Below are positions 12,611-43,693 of a DNA stretch of 64,000 bases, one piece after another; the first letter of the stretch is position 1, and each line of letters opens with the position of its first letter. This stretch comes from a virus, in the IMG/VR virus record IMGVR_UViG_3300035698_002820, positions 1-64,000 of that record. One strand, written 5' to 3'. The translations under genes were made by a program, and so were the position numbers. The notes beneath the pieces are model-generated. The model was not told the origin of the DNA. It saw only the letters and a program-made list of their open reading frames with translations, and made no database searches.

Positions 12611-13392
12611 TCTCTATCTCCTGCCCAAAAAGTGCCGGCCTGTTCTGCTCCATCCATCCTGATACAGCTGCCACTCAAATATGCCCCACGCTCCAACAAG
12701 GATAGAATAACCCAAGCCACTTCGCGTGTACTAGCAAACCGGTTGGCAGGCACAAGAGCACGGCGCATTTTCTTCCATTCTTCTATGGTGCTACCACGTT
12801 GTTCAACCAGACATGTATTTACTAGCTTGTCCATTGGGGTATCTTCCACAACACCCAGGTCTAACTGAATAACAGAAAAACGACGTGGTGCCAATTCACG
12901 TGCCAAGCACTGGGTCAAGGCCTGCAGGCCACGTTTGGATGCAGCATAAGCAAATGTTTTGGTGCGTGGGATATCAGCAGCATTGGAGCCAATGTTGACA
13001 ATCATCTTGGTGCCAAATTGATTGCCACACGTAGCCACAAATGCCTTGATGCAGATGAACGGTGCAAGCAGGTTATTTCTCAGTGTGTGTTCAAACTGCC
13101 CCATGGTATACCCATCAAGGCTGCCTAGAACATTGACACCCATACAATTGACAAGGCCATGAATGTCCCCATATTCTTGTTGTACCTGCCAGAAGATGGC
13201 CATCATGGAGTCCCAGTCAGCACAATCAGCCAGGTATGTTTTGACACCATTTGGAGGTACTTGCATCAAACTGCCATTCTGGTTATCAACTGCTGCCACA
13301 TTGTACTTACCAGCATGCAATGCCTGAACAACAGCAGCACCAATATTGCCGTAGTTAGCTGCTCCCATCACAATTACGGTCTTTCTGTCCAT
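12607..13392 (-). CDS. Short-chain dehydrogenase/reductase
   Basis: 261 residues with a Rossmann fold. The glycine motif is GAANYGNIG near the N-terminus, NCMG replaces the usual NAAG, and the catalytic Ser and YxxxK appear as NIGSNAAD and FAYAASKRG. Family members oxidise or reduce alcohols or ketones with NAD(P); the substrate is not evident. A redox enzyme in a replication block is unusual. It may act with the FAD-type enzyme at 14889. ATG 13392 is chosen because it overlaps the upstream stop by one base (TAATG). Confidence 0.85.
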   Translation of the reverse strand: MDRKTVIVMGAANYGNIGAAVVQALHAGKYNVAAVDNQNGSLMQVPPNGVKTYLADCADWDSMMAIFWQVQQEYGDIHGLVNCMGVNVLGSLDGYTMGQFEHTLRNNLLAPFICIKAFVATCGNQFGTKMIVNIGSNAADIPRTKTFAYAASKRGLQALTQCLARELAPRRFSVIQLDLGVVEDTPMDKLVNTCLVEQRGSTIEEWKKMRRALVPANRFASTREVAWVILSLLERGAYLSGSCIRMDGAEQAGTFWAGDRE

Positions 13393-13946
13393 TAGTCCTC
13401 CAATAGTGCTTCTATTTGACCATGACATGATTGACACAAGCACACTAGATTATCCAAGCTGTTATCCTGACTAATTCTAAATGGAACTTTGTGATGCACA
13501 TCTGGTTCTTGCCCCATTTCTTCTTGAGTCAAGCCACAATTCTGACAAGTGTGATTGTCTCTTTCAAGTGCTAGTTTACGTTGCTTGTGCCAATCTGAGC
13601 CATAATTGAATGATGTGCCTCCTTTCCAATTACCATTAAGTGCACCGCTTCTCTTGGCTATTTCTTCTTGTGTATGAACACGTCTTGTTTGTGCAGCACC
13701 TATTCTGTCCTTGGCCTCTTGTGTATGGGTGCATGTGTGGCCCAATGCACGTTGGTTGCCTATCATAACAGTGTGTATTGCCATCTTGTGCTTCTCAGAC
13801 AATGTACGGCCTGTCAATGCAGCACTTATTGTGGCCCCTTGTTCCAGTGTGCGGTGGCTGCCTGTATTGGCCTGCCATGCAATGACTTGTGCCTTGGCCA
13901 AAATAATCTTGTGTTTTTCAGTTCTTGGGTATACACCTGAAGGCAT
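13392..13946 (-). CDS. HNH homing endonuclease with NUMOD3-type repeats
   Basis: 184 residues. It begins MPSGVYPRTEKHKI and has NUMOD3-like modules (GRTLSEKHKMAIHTVMIGNQ). The nuclease part has CQNCGLTQEEM, DVHHKVPFR and NLVCLCQSCHG, so both zinc pairs and the HNH catalytic residues are present. It fits exactly between the SDR and the dUTPase-HAD genes with one-base overlaps on both sides, so it is a free-standing inserted gene. Confidence 0.88.
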   Translation of the reverse strand: MPSGVYPRTEKHKIILAKAQVIAWQANTGSHRTLEQGATISAALTGRTLSEKHKMAIHTVMIGNQRALGHTCTHTQEAKDRIGAAQTRRVHTQEEIAKRSGALNGNWKGGTSFNYGSDWHKQRKLALERDNHTCQNCGLTQEEMGQEPDVHHKVPFRISQDNSLDNLVCLCQSCHGQIEALLED

Positions 13947-17219: not shown

Positions 17220-17783
17220 TCAATCCTCCTCTGTATTATTGTTGATAAAGTGCTTGCGCCGCACTTCTTCCAGTACTTCAGCAATTAAGGAAGTATACAA
17301 GATGCCAGGTGCCTGTGATGCTACTGCAATATCTTCAGCCGTTGCCCTTGCTATAAATAGTTCTGCTGCGTGCACATGAGCAGTACTCAGCTGTGTAGCC
17401 TCATCCAGTAGAATCTGACGCCAGTTTGTCACATTACGTACACTCATAGCATCATTGACTGTACACAACATCCTGTCCAGCTTATCTCCGTGGTTGTCAC
17501 TGCCGAAAAGGTCAGTAAAGGTGAATGTGTTTCTACGTCCATCATTATAGCCATAGCGCAGTAATGATGTAGCTTTATACTTGAGGCACACTCTGAGGTA
17601 ATTCTCAAATGGGCCTTCTTCTGGTTTATATGAACCCCAGGCCATCACAAATGTCATCAGAAGTTCTTGTTCAACATCTTCTGCTTCCATGCCTGGGACA
17701 TATATTTTGGTGGCCATCTTGTGTATGACTGATTGCCATTCTATCAGAACAGCCTCAATGCTCTGGCCATCAATTACTTGCAC
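17220..17783 (-). CDS. Sigma-70 region 2-like protein
   Basis: 187 residues from GTG 17783 behind GAGGTAAACA. Residues about 15-80 read like sigma region 2: EDVEQELLMTFVMAWGSYKP, then FENYLRVCLKYKATSLLR. The C-terminal third is helical and could be a diverged region 4, but I see no clear -35-reading helix. It may redirect host RNA polymerase to phage promoters, or may be only a sigma-like fold. Confidence 0.65.
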   Translation of the reverse strand: MQVIDGQSIEAVLIEWQSVIHKMATKIYVPGMEAEDVEQELLMTFVMAWGSYKPEEGPFENYLRVCLKYKATSLLRYGYNDGRRNTFTFTDLFGSDNHGDKLDRMLCTVNDAMSVRNVTNWRQILLDEATQLSTAHVHAAELFIARATAEDIAVASQAPGILYTSLIAEVLEEVRRKHFINNNTEED

Positions 17784-21431: not shown

Positions 21432-22690
21432 TCTCCTAATAAGGTTAATGCTTCATCAAATATATCCGTAACTTCACCGATTTTGCCACGGTCAATACCA
21501 AATGAGATAACAAATGGTTTAGCTACACCACTACGTCGTGCTGCCTGTACCCCAATTTGCCTGAATTTTGGGTCACCCTGGGGCATTGCCATGCTGATGA
21601 CATAATCACAAGCTTGTCCAACTGCGTCACCCAAAACAATGTCCTGTAGTTTGGGCAGTTTAGCAACCTTTACCTGGCGGCCTGCCTGGGATGTTACAAT
21701 GATAGGCACATTGCAGTTGATAGCCACACTTTTCAGACCATATGCAATATGGTACATTTTCATCCAACTTTGCTCAGCACCTTCAACATCTTGCAGCAGT
21801 GGCATGCCATCCACACACACCAGGTCTGGCTTATGCCTTTGAATGAATGCCTCAACTGCAGGTACAGAAAAAGGCTTGCCCTCATCACAGCTTGCTGTCA
21901 CCCAATCTTTACGTTTGGCAGCATTAGTCAAGAATTCCCTATACTGCTGGACATTGATGTCCTTGCCTTGACCTAAACCTGTGTTGCTGAAACCACCCAT
22001 CAGGGTATCCCAGCGGGCATTGACTTCTTCTACAGGCATTTCTGGTGATAAAAATAAAATGCGTTGTCCTGCTCTGTATGCTGTGCACCCTATGTGCATA
22101 AGTAACCAACTTTTGCCCAATTTAGGTCTGCCGATAATGCCTACAAGCATACCAGGACGCCAGCCACCAAACAAGGCATCCAATGTATCAAAGCCAGTTG
22201 GGATACCTACAAGTCCTTTTTGACTTACAGTCAATGCACGCTCAACATATTCATCAGCACGCTCAAGTGCATTGCCATCTGTATGGCTGATAGCATTGAA
22301 AGGCATCCTGATGCAGCCCTTCAGTTCTTCACTCATGAGGGCAATTGTTTCAGCAGGCAAGGCCATCAAATTGGGAATGTGCTTAACCATCACTTGCTGA
22401 GCTGACAAATACATTGTGTGCTCAAGCAACAAATCTATGTAATAACCCAGAGCATAGTCTGATTCTGATAAAACTAATTCAGGCCAACGTCCAGCCAGCA
22501 CCTGTGCTGATGGTACGGTTTGATAGCGTTTGGAGTACTCATAGACAAATTCCAGCACATCAGCATAAACATGAAAATCTTCTGGTGTAACATTGGCTCC
22601 TTTTAACCTGGCAATATCACCTGCATCGTGGACACAGGATAGAATGCCCAATTCAATAGTGCTGGTGACTGCTACTTGACTATCTGGCAC
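21428..22690 (-). CDS. Replicative DNA helicase, DnaB type
   Basis: 420 residues from GTG 22690. The N-terminal helical domain is followed by the RecA-fold core: GIPTGFDTLDALFGGWRPG, Walker A GRPKLGKSW, LFLSPEM, Walker B-like DLVCVDGMPLL and VPIIVTSQAGR. This is the standard order of DnaB/phage gp41-type hexameric helicases. With the separate primase and DnaE it makes up the fork machinery. A homing endonuclease gene lies directly upstream, overlapping by 11 bp. Confidence 0.88.
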   Translation of the reverse strand: MPDSQVAVTSTIELGILSCVHDAGDIARLKGANVTPEDFHVYADVLEFVYEYSKRYQTVPSAQVLAGRWPELVLSESDYALGYYIDLLLEHTMYLSAQQVMVKHIPNLMALPAETIALMSEELKGCIRMPFNAISHTDGNALERADEYVERALTVSQKGLVGIPTGFDTLDALFGGWRPGMLVGIIGRPKLGKSWLLMHIGCTAYRAGQRILFLSPEMPVEEVNARWDTLMGGFSNTGLGQGKDINVQQYREFLTNAAKRKDWVTASCDEGKPFSVPAVEAFIQRHKPDLVCVDGMPLLQDVEGAEQSWMKMYHIAYGLKSVAINCNVPIIVTSQAGRQVKVAKLPKLQDIVLGDAVGQACDYVISMAMPQGDPKFRQIGVQAARRSGVAKPFVISFGIDRGKIGEVTDIFDEALTLLGE

Positions 22691-23171
22691 GTTCTACCTC
22701 TGGGTGGCACACTACACACAGACACACAAGATTACTTAGGTTGTTGTCCTGTGTTTCATTGAATGAGATTTTGTGATGAACATCCAATTCTCTACCCAGC
22801 TTTTCTTCAGTCACACTGCATTTCTGACAAGTATAATTATCTCTTGCACGTGCCAGCTTACGCTGTCCAGGCCAATCTGGGCCATAGTGGTGTGGTTTGC
22901 CACCCTTCCAGAAACAACTATTTTTACCACTTTTTGCTTCTATCTGCTCTTGTGACTGCTTATAACCCAATGCATATTGGTTGCCCAATAACCTAGTGCT
23001 CATTGCACCTTTCTGTTCTGGTGTCATTCCACTACTACCTGCAGCATTCTGATTGCCCATTCTTGAGATGCTCATCCTGGCCTTTGTTTCTTCAGAATGC
23101 TTCATGTCTGTATGAGTAACACTCATTTTATTCTTAGATGCTTGTGAATGTTTGAATCCCTTTTTAGGCAC
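22680..23171 (-). CDS. HNH homing endonuclease with NUMOD3-type repeats
   Basis: 163 residues. I chose GTG 23171 because AAGGAG lies 7 nt before it and the result, PKKGFKHSQASKNKMS, is a typical opening for the family. NUMOD3-like modules follow, then CQKCSVTEEKL, DVHHKISFN and NLVCLCVVCHP, giving a complete zinc and HNH site. It is closely similar to the enzyme at 13392 and likewise occupies a junction in the replication block without extra spacing. Confidence 0.87.
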   Translation of the reverse strand: MPKKGFKHSQASKNKMSVTHTDMKHSEETKARMSISRMGNQNAAGSSGMTPEQKGAMSTRLLGNQYALGYKQSQEQIEAKSGKNSCFWKGGKPHHYGPDWPGQRKLARARDNYTCQKCSVTEEKLGRELDVHHKISFNETQDNNLSNLVCLCVVCHPEVERAR

Positions 23172-23748
23172 GTCCAAGCTCCTTCTCCCACTTCTTTACT
23201 AATGCATTTAGCAGTTTCTGTGCTTCATCATTGTCACTATCGGCCATTACACACAAGTGCTTGAAAATTCTGAGCTGCTCTGGGTCTTGGATAAACTGCA
23301 TGATGAACCGTGCCTTTGCAGTCTTTATGGTGATGCCCAAATCAGCAAGCCAGCCAGTGATGAATCCGCTGTTAAGCATGTTAATGGTAATGTCATCTAC
23401 AGTCTGTACTACGTAGCCCAGTAAGTGATATAGCATATATGGGTCACCAGCCATCTGGAGTACTCTTTTCATCATGCCTGCGTCCTTCACCAGGCTGTGA
23501 GGCATCATACGCTTATGAATAGTATAGAACAGGTCATACAGCAAAAAACACCACTCGTGAAGATTAAGTTCATCAGGCCACTTGCCATGGTAGTTGATGT
23601 ACTGTTTACGCATTCTTGGCCCAACATCACCCAGACTGGGTATGTTTGCTATGTCTTTTTTAGGCTTTGGTTTGACTTCAGACACAAGCTTAGTTTCAAT
23701 CTGCTTGGATTGAGTCAGCCTGAATGCCCACCCTGTTGCTGTTCCCAT
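23164..23748 (-). CDS. Unknown helical protein before the helicase
   Basis: 194 residues from ATG 23748 (GGGAGA upstream). It has a basic N-terminal third (KQIETKLVSEVKPKPKKD) and a helical remainder with several tryptophan/tyrosine positions. The place between ParB-like and helicase genes would suit a helicase loader or replication accessory factor, but I see no ATPase motif. It overlaps the gene at 23696 by 53 bp. Confidence 0.6.
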   Translation of the reverse strand: MGTATGWAFRLTQSKQIETKLVSEVKPKPKKDIANIPSLGDVGPRMRKQYINYHGKWPDELNLHEWCFLLYDLFYTIHKRMMPHSLVKDAGMMKRVLQMAGDPYMLYHLLGYVVQTVDDITINMLNSGFITGWLADLGITIKTAKARFIMQFIQDPEQLRIFKHLCVMADSDNDEAQKLLNALVKKWEKELGRA

Positions 23749-23890
23749 CAACTTTCTCCCTGAGCAAACGTATCTCTGCAATCAGTTCTGGCACATCTTG
23801 ATATAGCCAGTTTAGAATCTCTTCATTTGACAGTGGATAGGAAGGTGCTAACACAGCTTCAATTTCTTGTAACTTTTCTTCAGTTATCAT
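23696..23890 (-). CDS. Small acidic helical protein
   Basis: 64 residues, mostly charged helix (EEKLQEIEAVLAPSYPLSNE). It overlaps its neighbours at both ends. Function unknown. Confidence 0.5.
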   Translation of the reverse strand: MITEEKLQEIEAVLAPSYPLSNEEILNWLYQDVPELIAEIRLLREKVDGNSNRVGIQADSIQAD

Positions 23891-25810: not shown

Positions 25811-25814
25811 CCGA

Positions 25815-25904
25815 TTACTCCTTTTTTTCTATCTGATATTGATTGACCAGGGATGACTGTCCAACTTCTGCTGGATAGCCATCAACGTATAAGTGATTTG
25901 TCAT
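25815..25904 (-). CDS. 29-residue micro-protein, coupled to the frame upstream
   Basis: It starts as TGATG with the stop of the 50-residue frame and ends inside the ribosome site of the next gene (stop four bases before its ATG). It is soluble and contains HLYVDGYPAEVGQ. An in-frame ATG at 25964 would give 49 residues. Low certainty because of its size. Confidence 0.35.
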   Translation of the reverse strand: MTNHLYVDGYPAEVGQSSLVNQYQIEKKE

Positions 25905-26056
25905 CACCAGCCCATTCTCAATATGTTGTCCATACGTTCTTTCGGCGCATGGCTTAAAAACCATTCAACATAATACGCAGTCATCCCTGGTGAAAGACTG
26001 CTGCTTGTGCCTCCCTGGGCGAATTGTCTGCCGAAGTCTGGTAACTGGTTTATCAT
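25904..26056 (-). CDS. 50-residue micro-protein
   Basis: An ATG at 26056 opens a frame starting MINQLPDFGRQF and ending in PKERMDNILRMGW, with aromatic and charged residues spread as in a real small protein. It ends in a TGATG coupling to the next micro-frame. The ribosome site (AACAAGG) is close to the start and weak. A 14-bp inverted repeat (25846-25859 with 25978-25991) lies partly in it. Confidence 0.4.
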   Translation of the reverse strand: MINQLPDFGRQFAQGGTSSSLSPGMTAYYVEWFLSHAPKERMDNILRMGW

Positions 26057-26132
26057 CCCTTGTTGGGCCGGATCGTGCCCATCCAGGCTACACAGGCCAA
26101 TTCACAATCTATTCGGGACCAGCATCCACTTG

Positions 26133-26246
26133 TTAACCAGCAGTCCTCTGCTTAACAGTCGTACAACAGTCATCACATTTAAAATGCGTTGACGGCATGT
26201 TTTGTATCAATATTGCTGGGTGATGGATGAAATGCGTTTTTTTCAT
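26133..26246 (-). CDS. 37-residue Cys/His-rich micro-protein
   Basis: A frame from ATG 26246 gives a protein with HHPAILIQ and CDDCC near the C-terminus, a possible metal site. The 22-bp junction repeat copy C lies inside its end. It has a good -10-like region upstream (TATAGTATAAAG) but no clear ribosome site, so this is tentative. Confidence 0.3.
   Translation of the reverse strand: MKKTHFIHHPAILIQNMPSTHFKCDDCCTTVKQRTAG
26151..26172 (-). repeat. Dispersed 22-bp junction repeat, copy C
   Basis: Minus-strand TGACTG-TTGT-ACGACTGTTAAG, in a nearly gene-free stretch rather than at a long gene's end. Same orientation as the other copies. Confidence 0.6.
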
Positions 26247-26279
26247 TGCAAAATAACTTATATACTTTATACTATAACT

Positions 26280-26318
26280 AAAGTATCTATTAGTATCATT
26301 AGTACTAATAGATACCTT
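26280..26318 (-). terminator. AT-rich 13-bp hairpin, probable terminator
   Basis: GTATCTATTAGTA (26283-26295) pairs perfectly with TACTAATAGATAC (26303-26315) around a 7-nt loop. The next pair outward is G-U only in minus-strand RNA, after which two A-U pairs continue the stem, so a leftward transcript is favoured. It follows the gene ending at 26349 and is followed by TTTAGTTAT, a weak U tract, and an AT-rich promoter-like stretch. Confidence 0.5.
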
Positions 26319-26348
26319 ATAGTCCGTACATAGTTCTTTGGAATCGTG

Positions 26349-26651
26349 TTAAAATGTGGGTGGTATTGGTCCGTGCACTCTGGCAACTGGAGAAGCAGTT
26401 GGTGCAGGTACCATGGCCAATGCAAAGGCTGCCAGCAGGTTCTGTGCCAGCTCGGAGTGTTCCATAGTGAAGTCAATGAATCTTTTGTTCATCAGATGCA
26501 AGGCCAGTTCATTGGCAACTACGATTATGGTTCCCTTGCCTTCTCTGTCTGTGGTCATGATGACAGCAGCAGTATCACCATCCAGCTGCATGCTCTGATA
26601 CTCACCATCTGCCCAGGTGATGTCTATTTTCTTGATTTGCTTTCTGTCCAT
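26349..26651 (-). CDS. Unknown small protein
   Basis: 100 residues. The N-terminal 50 residues are beta-rich (KKIDITWADGEYQSMQLDGD), then a helical section and a Pro/Ala-rich tail (PAPTASPVARVHGPIPP). AGGAACAATG precedes the start. It is the last gene before the hairpin at 26283-26315. Confidence 0.6.
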   Translation of the reverse strand: MDRKQIKKIDITWADGEYQSMQLDGDTAAVIMTTDREGKGTIIVVANELALHLMNKRFIDFTMEHSELAQNLLAAFALAMVPAPTASPVARVHGPIPPTF

Positions 26652-26848
26652 TGTTCCTCCATATTTTGTGAATTTGTGTTGCTTTGTGCTTCCAGAAGAG
26701 GCAGAAGTTCCTTGTATGTCAAAGGCTTTTCACACTCTTCAACAGGATGGTACCTGGTGCATGGCCAGTATCCAGAACTCTGTACAGGGTGACCCAGCTG
26801 GCATCTGTTAAGTGAGAATGCTCTGCATCCAGCACAGGTTCTTTTCAT
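26624..26848 (-). CDS. Small Cys-rich protein
   Basis: 74 residues from ATG 26848 (ATG 26851 adjacent). The N-terminal third has CAGCRAFSLNRCQLG and two more Cys, enough for one metal site. The rest is polar and low in complexity. It overlaps the next gene by 28 bp. Confidence 0.5.
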   Translation of the reverse strand: MKRTCAGCRAFSLNRCQLGHPVQSSGYWPCTRYHPVEECEKPLTYKELLPLLEAQSNTNSQNMEEQWTESKSRK

Positions 26849-26852
26849 CATC

Positions 26853-36834: not shown

Positions 36835-37167
36835 CTATTTGTTGCGGTTGATTTGAGGCACTACTGAGCTGCTCATTGGATCACAGTCGCTGTAGTCAGC
36901 ATCGTCCTCTATGGTATCACCCAGCGTAAAGCCCATCATCATCTTCTTCTCTTCCATTTCGGCATGCTCTTGCATAGCCTTCAGTTCTTCATTCAGCTTG
37001 CTGACATTCAGTCGTTCGCCTAGTGGGCAGCGAACATAGCCCATAGCTTGGTGAGCAAATGGGCAGCCTACACAATAGTCCTGATGGAGTGTGCCTTTCA
37101 CTATTCTAGCCAATCGGCATTGTTCCATCCGTCGTCTTACCACGATCCTCTTCCTATCGTGCTTCAT
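36835..37167 (-). CDS. First gene of the left transcription unit, unknown
   Basis: 110 residues with a basic N-terminus (MKHDRKRIVVRRRMEQCR), a Cys cluster (YCVGCPFAHQ...RCPLGER) and an acidic C-terminus. It has GGGAGG before its ATG and lies directly after the gene-free control region, so it is the first gene read from the promoter there. Confidence 0.6.
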   Translation of the reverse strand: MKHDRKRIVVRRRMEQCRLARIVKGTLHQDYCVGCPFAHQAMGYVRCPLGERLNVSKLNEELKAMQEHAEMEEKKMMMGFTLGDTIEDDADYSDCDPMSSSVVPQINRNK

Positions 37168-37197
37168 TCTATTTGCCTCCCTTCATAGTGCGGTGGG

Positions 37198-37250
37198 TTC
37201 AGCACTAGTGCTTGCCTTCATTATATATAAGGGCAAACAGCAGTGCCGAA
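37198..37250 (-). promoter_or_regulatory. Candidate leftward promoter of the left transcription unit
   Basis: A perfect TATAAT reads at 37225-37220 with a partial -35 (TCGGCA) 18 bp upstream. The start site would fall about 40 bases before the gene at 37167. The -35 match is poor, so this is a modest call. Confidence 0.4.
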
Positions 37251-37496
37251 ACACCGCTGTCTCATCATATAGCCTATTCTCTTTGAAAGAGTTCCAGCAG
37301 CCTTCTGATTCCCTTTGGTCTCAGGTGAAGAATCTGGCCAGACAACAACCCAGCCAGGTGAAGTGAAGTGATGCCTATGACGGGTGATTGATAGTGAAGG
37401 TGAGTGCCTACTGCCCTTTGCTCTTGAGTTTTTAAGGTTCAGACTAGATTTACTTTCACCTATAAGTATAGTCCATATCCATTTTCTTGGCTAATC

Positions 37497-37638
37497 GAAA
37501 ACCCAGAGAAACCAACTGAAACGTGATGAATATAATATTCGTCACGCTTCAAGCAGATTCTCATGACTTCAAGCATATTCTTATCGTTTCAAGGGGATCA
37601 TAAGCGTGGTTGACGTTTCAGGCGATTCTATATGATTC
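37497..37638. repeat. 10-bp phased GAA/TTC array with central palindrome
   Basis: GAA triplets start at 37497, 37508, 37518 and 37528; after the palindrome GAATATAATATTC (37528-37540), TTC triplets start at 37538, 37548, 37558, 37568, 37578 and 37588, exactly 10 bp apart, then at 37617, 37626 and 37636. Thus the array reads as direct decamers that flip orientation at the palindrome, which extends to CGTGA..TCACG (522-546). Decamers such as GAAACCAACT recur in the second array. A phased set of sites on one face of the helix suggests cooperative protein binding. Confidence 0.75.
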
Positions 37639-37738
37639 CAACGGCCTAAAAAGACCCACTAGAATGGGTTCTGCCGGGCAAGCTCACTCATAGAATCGCT
37701 TGCGTGGGCTAGATCACCTTGATTTCTCAAAATTGCTT

Positions 37739-37912
37739 GAAACCAAGAGAAACCAGGCGAAACAAAAAGAATAGCGCAAACGTAAAACGCCATTTTTGAC
37801 TCATAAAATTGCCCCCTAGAAACCAACTGAAACAAAGAGAAGCCCAGAGAAGTCCATTGAAATGAGTGAGCCTTGAAACAAAGAGAAACCGCTTGAATAG
37901 ATAGTGCTTGAA
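37739..37912 (+). repeat. Second GAA decamer array
   Basis: GAA triplets start at 37739, 37749, 37759, 37769; then at 37819, 37829, 37839, 37849, 37859; then 37875, 37885, 37895 and 37910. The first nine share the same 10-bp phase across a 50-bp gap; the next group is shifted by 6 bp. Consensus GAAACCAA followed by G/C and A/T. The unit is in one orientation only. It lies 100 bp from the first array with the same consensus. Confidence 0.75.
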
Positions 37913-37970
37913 TAGCGTGCTTTGCCCGATAAAATGATTTGTGTGTATTACTTTATTTTTCACGCCTGCC

Positions 37971-38127
37971 CTATACATTTTATTATGGCCGTTCTATACA
38001 TTTTGTCAAGGCACACCATAAGATAATCGCAAGGTTACCCATAGAACAGACGTAAAGGCAGCCATAAGATAATGTTATGGCCATCCTTGTCATTTTGTTC
38101 TGGTGAGCCTATACAAAATGTTATGGC
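37971..38127. repeat. CTATACATTTT / GCCATAA repeat cluster
   Basis: CTATACATTTT begins at 37971 and again at 37994; CTATACAAAATGTTATGGC begins at 38109; GCCATAAGATAATGTTATGGC at 38061-38081 is an inverted repeat of GCCATAA. The TTATGGC/GCCATAA half occurs at least five times in both orientations. These look like operator sites around the promoter at 37982-38009, distinct from the GAA arrays. Confidence 0.6.
37982..38009 (-). promoter_or_regulatory. Strong sigma70-like leftward promoter
   Basis: On the minus strand TTGACA (38009-38004) and CATAAT (37987-37982) are separated by 16 bp. The promoter overlaps two copies of the CTATACATTTT repeat, so a protein bound there would block it. It would transcribe through both GAA arrays toward the gene at 37167. 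Confidence 0.6.
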
Positions 38128-38242
38128 TTGCCTTGGAGCCTGCTTGGTGGGCGAGTCGCTTTTCGTGTGTGCGCCCACTAGTGGTGTACCGTCATGCATT
38201 ATAGGTACAGAAAACAACCCTACTCCTAAAATATAGAAATAA

Positions 38243-38288
38243 AAAAAAGTACACCAGTCCCAGCAAAGGCCACTGAATGTACTTTTTT
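38243..38288 (-). terminator. Intrinsic terminator ending the right transcription unit
   Basis: The 11-bp stem AAAAAAGTACA (38243-38253) pairs with TGTACTTTTTT (38278-38288), with an inner 4-bp CAGT/ACTG stem. On the minus strand it is followed by eight U residues. It begins about 105 bases after the gene ending at 38395, and marks the end of the right-hand transcript. It also has six U on the plus strand, so it may be bidirectional. Confidence 0.8.
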
Positions 38289-38394
38289 ATGAGGGAGATA
38301 GAAAAACTACTCCCCCTATCGCGTTAAGTGTATGGGTGGGACGGAGAATAAGCACGCCGGGGTGTCGCCGCCACCATTTCTTATGTTAAGGGTC

Positions 38395-42829: not shown

Positions 42830-42877
42830 GGTGCCTCCTTATTTCTATGTTCTTCTTTCCATCACCAGACTGCACAG

Positions 42878-43051
42878 TTACAGTCCAAAATACTTACACA
42901 GTATCATGATTGGGATAGCAATTAGTGCAGCACCAGACAGAATACCAATGAGAATGCCAATACTGATGACCAGGCCTGCTATTGCTTCTGCTGTGCTTTC
43001 ATCTGTAGAACAATGATTTGGCAGTATTGGATTGTGAGATTTACGATGCAT
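42878..43051 (-). CDS. 57-residue membrane micro-protein
   Basis: Starts at ATG 43051 behind AGGAGGAAC at a normal spacing. A polar N-terminus precedes a long hydrophobic stretch (GLVISIGILIGILSGAALIA) and IMILCKYFGL. It is a good candidate for a real single-pass protein, perhaps holin-like or an inner-membrane accessory. It lies directly downstream of the tRNA-Leu gene. Confidence 0.6.
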   Translation of the reverse strand: MHRKSHNPILPNHCSTDESTAEAIAGLVISIGILIGILSGAALIAIPIMILCKYFGL

Positions 43052-43066
43052 TATGTTCCTCCTCAG

Positions 43067-43140
43067 TACAGGAGACAGGATTCGAACCTGCAGTGAAGTG
43101 GGTCTAAGCCACTTGCCTTTGCCATTTAGGCCACTCCTGC
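43067..43140 (-). tRNA. tRNA-Leu (TAG) with class I variable loop
   Basis: Acceptor GCAGGAG/CTCCTGT, D stem GCCT/AGGC, anticodon stem AGTGG/CCACT with loop CTTAGAC (anticodon TAG) and T arm GCAGG-TTCGAAT-CCTGT. The variable loop is only 5 nt, whereas tRNA-Leu normally has a long variable arm. Identity Leu follows from the anticodon alone. Confidence 0.8.
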
Positions 43141-43143
43141 TTA

Positions 43144-43217
43144 AGCTGATGAGTGGAATCGAACCACTGACAAGTGCCTTACAAGGACACTGCTCTACCT
43201 GGCTGAGCTACACCAGC
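43144..43217 (-). tRNA. tRNA-Thr (TGT)
   Basis: Acceptor GCTGGTG/CATCAGC, D stem GCTC/GAGC, anticodon loop CTTGTAA (anticodon TGT) in a stem with one G-U pair, and T arm with TTCGATT. All arms present. Confidence 0.92.
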
Positions 43218-43220
43218 AAG

Positions 43221-43295
43221 AGGGATGGGCTGGAATCGAACCAGCAATATTCCTGGGTCACAGCCAAGTGCGTTACCATTTACGCTCACCATCCC
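43221..43295 (-). tRNA. tRNA-His (GTG)
   Basis: Acceptor GGGATGG/CCATCCC, anticodon stem CTTGG/CCAGG with loop CTGTGAC (anticodon GTG) and T arm GCTGG-TTCGATT-CCAGC. The base before the 5' end is T rather than the G usually added at -1. Confidence 0.88.
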
Positions 43296-43299
43296 ATAG

Positions 43300-43373
43300 T
43301 AGCGGGAGCCAGATTCGAACTGGCATTCTCTGGATTATGAGACCAGTGTGCTGACCAATTGCACTATCCCGCA
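43300..43373 (-). tRNA. tRNA with CAT anticodon (Met or Ile2)
   Basis: Acceptor TGCGGGA/TCCCGCT with a T-T mismatch at 1-72, D stem GTGC/GCAC, anticodon stem CTGGT/TCCAG with a mismatch at the loop end and loop CTCATAA, T arm GCCAG-TTCGAAT-CTGGC. Met or lysidine-modified Ile cannot be separated by sequence here. The 1-72 mismatch recalls initiators but the anticodon stem lacks their GGG pairs. Confidence 0.75.
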
Positions 43374-43454
43374 GTGTACTATGTCTGCTATTATTGCAAC
43401 AGCAAATGGCACACCTTCACGTAGGCATGCCCATAGGTAAATGGCTGTTTTCAT
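43335..43454 (-). CDS. 39-residue membrane micro-protein
   Basis: Starts at ATG 43454 with AAGGAGTG at an 8-nt spacing. Residues about 14-37 are hydrophobic (VPFAVAIIADIVHCGIVQLV). Its 3' half overlaps the tRNA-Met gene, so it would need to be read through before tRNA processing. Function unknown. Confidence 0.45.
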   Translation of the reverse strand: MKTAIYLWACLREGVPFAVAIIADIVHCGIVQLVSTLVS

Positions 43455-43469
43455 AAATGTGGCACTCCT

Positions 43470-43574
43470 TTATGAGAAGATGTGCTGTAGTATCCAGCTA
43501 CCAAAACAGATAGCAGACAAGATTACTAAACATCCTACAAAAAGTGAAGCCTCATTGAATGGGAATTTTTTCAC
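43470..43574 (-). CDS. 34-residue membrane micro-protein
   Basis: Starts at GTG 43574 with AAGGAG five bases upstream, an excellent site. A short basic start (MKKF) precedes a membrane segment (SLFVGCLVILSAICFGSWIL). It ends just before the ribosome site of the next micro-gene. It looks like a real single-pass protein. Confidence 0.55.
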   Translation of the reverse strand: MKKFPFNEASLFVGCLVILSAICFGSWILQHIFS

Positions 43575-43589
43575 CTAAACTCCTTATGG

Positions 43590-43663
43590 TGGAAGCAGTG
43601 GGATTCGAACCCACGACTTTCTCCGTGCAAAAGAGATACTCTCCCAGATTGAGTTATGCCCCC
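43590..43663 (-). tRNA. tRNA-Ala (TGC)
   Basis: Acceptor GGGGGCA/TGCTTCC (two G-U), D stem ACTC/GAGT, anticodon stem TCTCT/GGAGA with loop TTTGCAC (anticodon TGC), T arm GTGGG-TTCGAAT-CCCAC. Discriminator A followed by CCACC in the DNA. Confidence 0.92.
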
Positions 43664-43671
43664 ACCTTCTA

Positions 43672-43693
43672 CCTATCAGTCGTTACTCAGTCA
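43672..43693 (-). repeat. Dispersed 22-bp junction repeat, copy F
   Basis: Minus-strand TGACTG-AGTA-ACGACTGATAGG. It spans the stop codon of the gene at 43683 and lies before the tRNA-Ala gene. The last four bases diverge most. Confidence 0.55.

Follow-up and report, generated by a model that had tools for sequence, protein, structure and literature searches.

A composite array of 10-bp decamers and 23-bp iterons in the longest gene-free region of a divergent phage: a candidate replication origin with transcription control

Introduction

The question raised by this locus is what role is played by a stretch of phage DNA that holds no annotated gene, yet carries GAA and TTC triplets repeated at steps of exactly one helical turn. 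The DNA analysed, referred to here as the window, comprises 64,000 bases and corresponds to bases 1-64000 of a record of 71,301 bases. The original prediction proposed a replication, partition or regulatory centre. Its general content, a cis-acting site, fits all the evidence gathered here, whereas the partition option is disfavoured. The element is of an ordinary kind, a cis-acting site array, found in an unusually divergent phage.

Results

The decamer arrays

Recomputation of the triplet positions reproduced the predicted 10-bp steps at every start (Table 1), together with the flip from GAA to TTC at a palindrome. A rightward orientation is common to sets C, D and E, of which C and D keep a single 10-bp register, and near-phase TTC triplets continue beyond set B at 37617, 37626 and 37636. 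The unit had been given as GAAACCAAx; the GAA core is indeed nearly invariant, but the rest is looser (A 13/26, C 17/26, then variable).

Table 1. Features of the control region and the adjoining gene (window coordinates)
Feature	Position	Strand	Remarks
Gene opening next block	36835-37167	-	110 aa; no Pfam match; no relative found in IMG/VR
Control region, gene-free	37168-38394	.	1227 bp; longest gap between annotated genes
Promoter-like P2	37220-37249	-	TCGGCA-18-TATAAT (10/12); ~50 bp upstream of gene 36835-37167
Decamer set A	37508-37537	+	GAA at 37508, 37518, 37528
Palindrome	37522-37546	.	CGTGATGAATATAATATTCGTCACG; centre 37534; convergence point of sets A and B
Decamer set B	37538-37590	-	TTC at 37538, 37548, 37558, 37568, 37578, 37588; also a 20-bp tandem (CTTCAAGCAGATTCTCATCA)
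Weak terminator-like hairpin	37654-37669	-	Between sets B and C; number of such hairpins not above chance
Decamer set C	37739-37771	+	GAA at 37739, 37749, 37759, 37769; GAAACCAAGA GAAACCAGGC GAAACAAAAA GAA
Decamer set D	37819-37861	+	GAA at 37819, 37829, 37839, 37849, 37859; five units; 80 bp (eight steps) past set C
Decamer set E	37875-37897	+	GAA at 37875, 37885, 37895; three units; extra GAA at 37910
Seven tandem 23-bp iterons	37970-38130	.	Starts at 37970 + 23n
Promoter-like P1	37982-38009	-	TTGACA-16-CATAAT (11/12); within iterons 1 and 2
AT-richest 50 bp of region	38200-38249	.	74%; overlaps T run of terminator-like hairpin
Terminator-like hairpin with T run	38243-38288	-	Ends upstream gene block; RNA fold z = -2.4; inverted repeat I9

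The periodicity is far stronger than composition would give. Between 37497 and 37912, 11 GAA pairs lie at distance 10 (0.66 expected, and at most 4 in any of 500 dinucleotide shuffles), and TTC behaves likewise (6 pairs vs 0.11 expected). When the whole 1.2-kb gap was shuffled 1000 times with dinucleotides preserved and runs of at least three triplets were counted, the real gap held 21 triplets in such runs, the longest of six, while the shuffles gave a mean of 0.02 and a maximum of 3; the proposed periodicity thus withstands the shuffle test. No other triplet, and no spacing from 7 to 14, approaches this signal within the gap. Across the 64 kb, the 416-bp segments richest in 10-bp pairs all overlap the 37497-37912 region (17 vs a maximum of 3 elsewhere), and no comparable decamer site was found elsewhere in the 71.3-kb genome.

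Iterons, promoters and layout of the region

A second array, absent from the original prediction, lies immediately to the right of the decamers and consists of seven tandem iterons: CCTATACATTTTATTATGGCCGT, TCTATACATTTTGTCAAGGCACA, CCATAAGATAATCGCAAGGTTAC and CCATAGAACAGACGTAAAGGCAG as copies 1-4, followed by CCATAAGATAATGTTATGGCCAT, CCTTGTCATTTTGTTCTGGTGAG and CCTATACAAAATGTTATGGCTTG as copies 5-7. The lag-23 identity reaches 0.567 here, higher than anywhere else in the window (mean 0.251, sd 0.041), and exceeds the highest value obtained at any lag from 4 to 59 in 300 shuffles (0.475). Several copies form imperfect palindromes around an A/T centre, the best being GCCATAAgATaaTGTTATGGC at 38061. 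Promoter-like P1 scores highest among the intergenic sigma-70-like matches; in all 71 kb just one further site, which is intragenic, ranks with it. P1 sits in the iterons, outside the decamers.

The surrounding gap had been called the only long gene-free region. It is the longest, but two others, 25811-26852 and the tRNA-containing 42830-43682, are also long. An 83-aa open reading frame within it gave no match in a PHROGs search. The two transcription units said to flank the gap are present, and both run in the same direction on the minus strand; the region lies between the terminator-like hairpin at 38243-38288 and promoter-like P2 of the next gene block.

The phage and its relatives

The first 127 bases of the 71.3-kb record are identical to its last 127; the record is therefore probably a complete, circularly assembled genome, with ends that represent assembly overlap or terminal redundancy. 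The minus strand carries every annotated gene. Among the gene products are a DnaE-type polymerase, DnaB, primase, RecA, ClpP, ThyX and other nucleotide enzymes, a major capsid protein and a portal-like protein; there are also seven tRNAs, and tRNAs were the only Rfam matches. A protein with sigma-70 region 2 (window 17220-17783, minus; E 1.8e-06, above the cut-off) could set late or middle promoters. Two HNH endonuclease genes (window 22680-23177 and 13392-13946, minus), one with NUMOD3, stand beside DnaB or in the replication block, and both are probably free-standing homing endonucleases. The tyrosine integrase model PF00589 found no match in the genome, while it matched in all 14 control genomes. 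Taken with the phage's own DnaE, DnaB, primase, RecA and sigma factor, this makes the phage look lytic.

Relatives are distant throughout. Megablast found no close relative, nor did searches with the polymerase (best 37%), with the genes flanking the gap or, against IMG/VR, with the capsid protein (best 28%). The polymerase, the best-conserved protein among those tested, is only about 36% identical to that of any annotated phage. Capsid and terminase show distant kinship (21-29%), mainly to phages of Mycobacterium, Gordonia and Microbacterium, and an actinobacterial host is our guess. A search for the decamer pattern in sets of 31 and 33 distant relatives returned one chance-like match. Structure predictions made without alignments were poor, with a mean pLDDT of 58 and 43, and the fold search gave no match.

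Decamers in other genomes

Arrays with a GAAAC core were found in 76 viral contigs and those with the reversed core in 50, but an arbitrary control core, GACAA, gave at least 120; among the matches listed, spacer-divergent arrays likewise numbered at least 26 for GACAA vs 16 for GAAAC. With a control core that equals or outnumbers it, GAAAC shows no enrichment and carries no special signal, and a specific "GAAAC code" was rejected. Judged from these searches, it is the 10-bp pitch that recurs widely in phages.

In four viral contigs (L012, L052, L063 and L058), the GAAAC decamers lie inside genes that match replication-initiation families or their homologues. Because 10 is not a multiple of 3 and the linkers are out of phase with the codons, these intragenic decamers are to be read as DNA-level sites. 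A parallel is offered by lambdoid phages, where the origin lies inside the O gene and its repeats are DNA-level sites (PMC7466680).

GACAA decamers with variable spacers also occur within long open reading frames (L430, L437, L442, L443, L472, L478, L479, L482, L483 and L486), and in L430 and L442 an oppositely directed GACAA array lies ~60 bp away. They look like another decamer-type site family in phages.

Among Bacteroidota, GAAAC arrays with variable spacers were observed in ten sequences (L336, L352, L376, L343, L357, L380, L338, L319, L337 and L342). In several genera a small Cys-rich gene follows the array at a distance of 60-96 bp, and the HTH_17 domain was confirmed in all four such genes scanned (L336, L343, L380 and L319). 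Upstream of most of these arrays the closest gene, at 185-211 bp, resembles mnmE (confirmed by Pfam in L336, L343 and L319). The arrangement looks like a conserved control site.

In an Ignavibacteriaceae MAG (L372, 480-1120), the stretch separating dnaA from rnpA contains a decamer run, GAAACCCCGTGAAACATTGTGAAACCCCGTGAAAC, next to DnaA-box-like TTATCCACA sites. This run is a possible origin element and is counted in favour of the origin reading discussed below.

Discussion

A replication origin with promoter control

The two arrays are best understood as a single composite cis-acting site, which would most likely, with a rough probability of 0.45, be a replication origin with built-in transcription control. 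An origin is favoured because the two large arrays are found together at a single locus and the phage brings its own replisome. With both arrays in the longest gap and nowhere else, one cis site is expected rather than scattered operators; with its own DnaE-type polymerase, DnaB, primase and RecA, the phage must initiate its own replication. Each array consists of tandem repeats of initiator-binding type at this one locus, as iteron origins do, binding itself being a prediction. Iteron origins are one of two well-documented kinds of site with such an anatomy, the other being the operators of head-to-tail winged-helix proteins; the PLE and SPP1 origins compared below and the decamers within the initiator genes of L012, L052, L063 and L058 also speak for an origin. 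What can be read directly in the DNA comprises the two arrays, their restriction to a single locus, the sites resembling promoters and terminators, and the replisome genes; from these we infer the binding and opening steps and the protein identities that follow. A candidate phage initiator would bind the seven 23-bp iterons, and the decamers may be coated, one protomer per helical turn, by a further domain of this initiator or by a separate factor, folding the 400-bp arm. Neighbouring AT-rich DNA would then open and the phage DnaB helicase could be loaded. Transcription from the iteron-embedded promoter would cross the decamers and may aid activation, and initiator binding would turn that promoter off.

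Several observations count against an origin. The DnaB gene lies 15 kb from the site, the AT-rich stretch at 38200-38249 coincides in part with the terminator-like hairpin, and the Bacteroidota GAAAC arrays precede HTH_17 genes instead. Nor is the GAAAC core special, given how frequent the GACAA control is. A strand-composition switch, which would support an origin without defining one, is absent at the site, and the third-position GC skew changes at ~25.8 kb. The initiator models RepA_N, HTH_36 and phrog_1408 gave no match in this genome, in which most small genes have no family.

A transcriptional switch

It is quite possible, and only a little less probable, that the region instead serves transcription alone, as a switch of the early genes at 37.2-26 kb. 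The decamers would then be occupied head to tail by a small winged-helix protein (Apl/Cox/Xis or BldC type), each turn taking one protomer, and this protein would bend the DNA and set the levels of P1 and P2. The 23-bp iterons, overlapping P1, would act as operators for a second regulator. The exact 10-bp steps agree with the direct repeats, one helical turn apart, that characterise this protein group: in phage 186, Apl binds cooperatively, and with bending, to direct repeats at 10-11 bp that are situated between early promoters (PMC7498355), each RdfS protomer covers ~10 bp (PMC11963761), and Streptomyces BldC forms filaments on ~9-bp direct repeats (PMC5859096). The placement of P1 inside the iterons, the position of the control region at the head of a gene block that has the same direction as the preceding one and is set off from it by a terminator-like hairpin, and the Bacteroidota decamers ahead of HTH_17 genes are also consistent with a switch. 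However, the HTH_17 profile has no match in the phage genome, where a small winged-helix regulator was not found. The ~20 decamers over 400 bp far exceed Apl's seven, they start ~250 bp upstream of P2, and no isolated copies of either the decamer or the 23-bp iteron occur at other promoters of the genome.

Partition, bent DNA and recombination

Partition is very improbable. On this reading the arrays would serve as the target of the ParB-like protein at 23880 or as a centromere, of either the ParMRC (ribbon-helix-helix) or the TubZRC kind. They do resemble parC, in which split tandem arrays surround a promoter and the 10-bp repeats are bound by ParR (PMC5016525). A ParB-like gene is present in the phage, as the original prediction stated; it is supported by PHROGs at 3e-18 and weakly by Pfam and PDB sequences, but it lies 13 kb away, has no ParA partner and shows no tie to the array. 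In favour of partition, half-sites of parS contain GTGAAAC. Partition is disfavoured because no motor protein was found: the ParA ATPase model gave a sub-cut-off match only, and there was no actin-like or tubulin-like match among the proteins scanned with Pfam. The ParM model failed to match in its controls and thus carries no weight on partition. Canonical type II and III centromeres adjoin their operon, whereas no par operon occurs at this site, and no integrase or other plasmid-like sign was found.

About equally improbable is an intrinsically bent or structural DNA, such as a packaging site, that has no sequence-specific binder. A-runs in 10-bp phase can bend DNA, but wedge-model curvature at the arrays lies at about the 98th percentile of the window, with many other sites ranking higher; moreover, the decamer units have a direction, which reverses at a palindrome, and bending leaves the 23-bp iterons unexplained. 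Least probable of all is a site of attachment or recombination whose repeats are of the excisionase type; the decamer pitch is typical of such sites, but the missing PF00589 integrase speaks against it.

Significance

As a candidate origin with promoter control, the site is probably the place at which this highly divergent phage starts or controls the replication of its genome and its early transcription, and its arrays provide a concrete DNA bait for catching the binding protein. They also point to a wider, cataloguable class of 10-bp-pitch site arrays in phages. A bolder generalisation, which we consider doubtful, is that 10-bp pentamer ladders with variable spacers form a general class of phage origins or control sites that has largely escaped recognition, placed inside initiator genes or, as here, in gene-free DNA beside 23-bp iterons, and that the initiator of this phage would belong to a new family polymerising along one DNA face.

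Comparison with known systems

Like the present site, the arrays of Apl, of the excisionase/Cox/Xis proteins and of BldC lie near early promoters and are built of directional repeats spaced about one turn apart (PMC7498355, PMC5859096). In contrast to them, this site has many more units, in both orientations, with 23-bp iterons alongside, and neither an integrase nor an HTH_17 gene was found. In the parC site of ParMRC plasmids, too, repeats with a period close to one turn stand in tandem, grouped into blocks on either side of a promoter (PMC5016525), but here ParM and ParR genes were not found and no par operon is adjacent.

Among origins, that of the ICP1 satellite PLE (NCR3, RepA) lies in a non-coding region and contains several repeat families, including iterons in tandem that are semi-palindromic about an A/T centre (PMC7145576). 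The PLE is a satellite with RepA, whereas the present element belongs to a phage in which RepA_N was not found and carries an additional array of 10-bp pitch. Bacillus phage SPP1, whose origins oriR and oriL are served by gp38, also uses direct repeats; its oriR is intergenic, with direct repeats and AT-rich DNA in a segment flanked by transcription signals (PMC6316719). The likeness concerns layout, and here a gp38-like initiator was not recognised and a second array family is present. Finally, the decamers inside the initiator genes of the four viral contigs have the same GAAAC core, 10-bp pitch and variable spacers; there the array lies within the initiator gene, whereas here it lies between genes.
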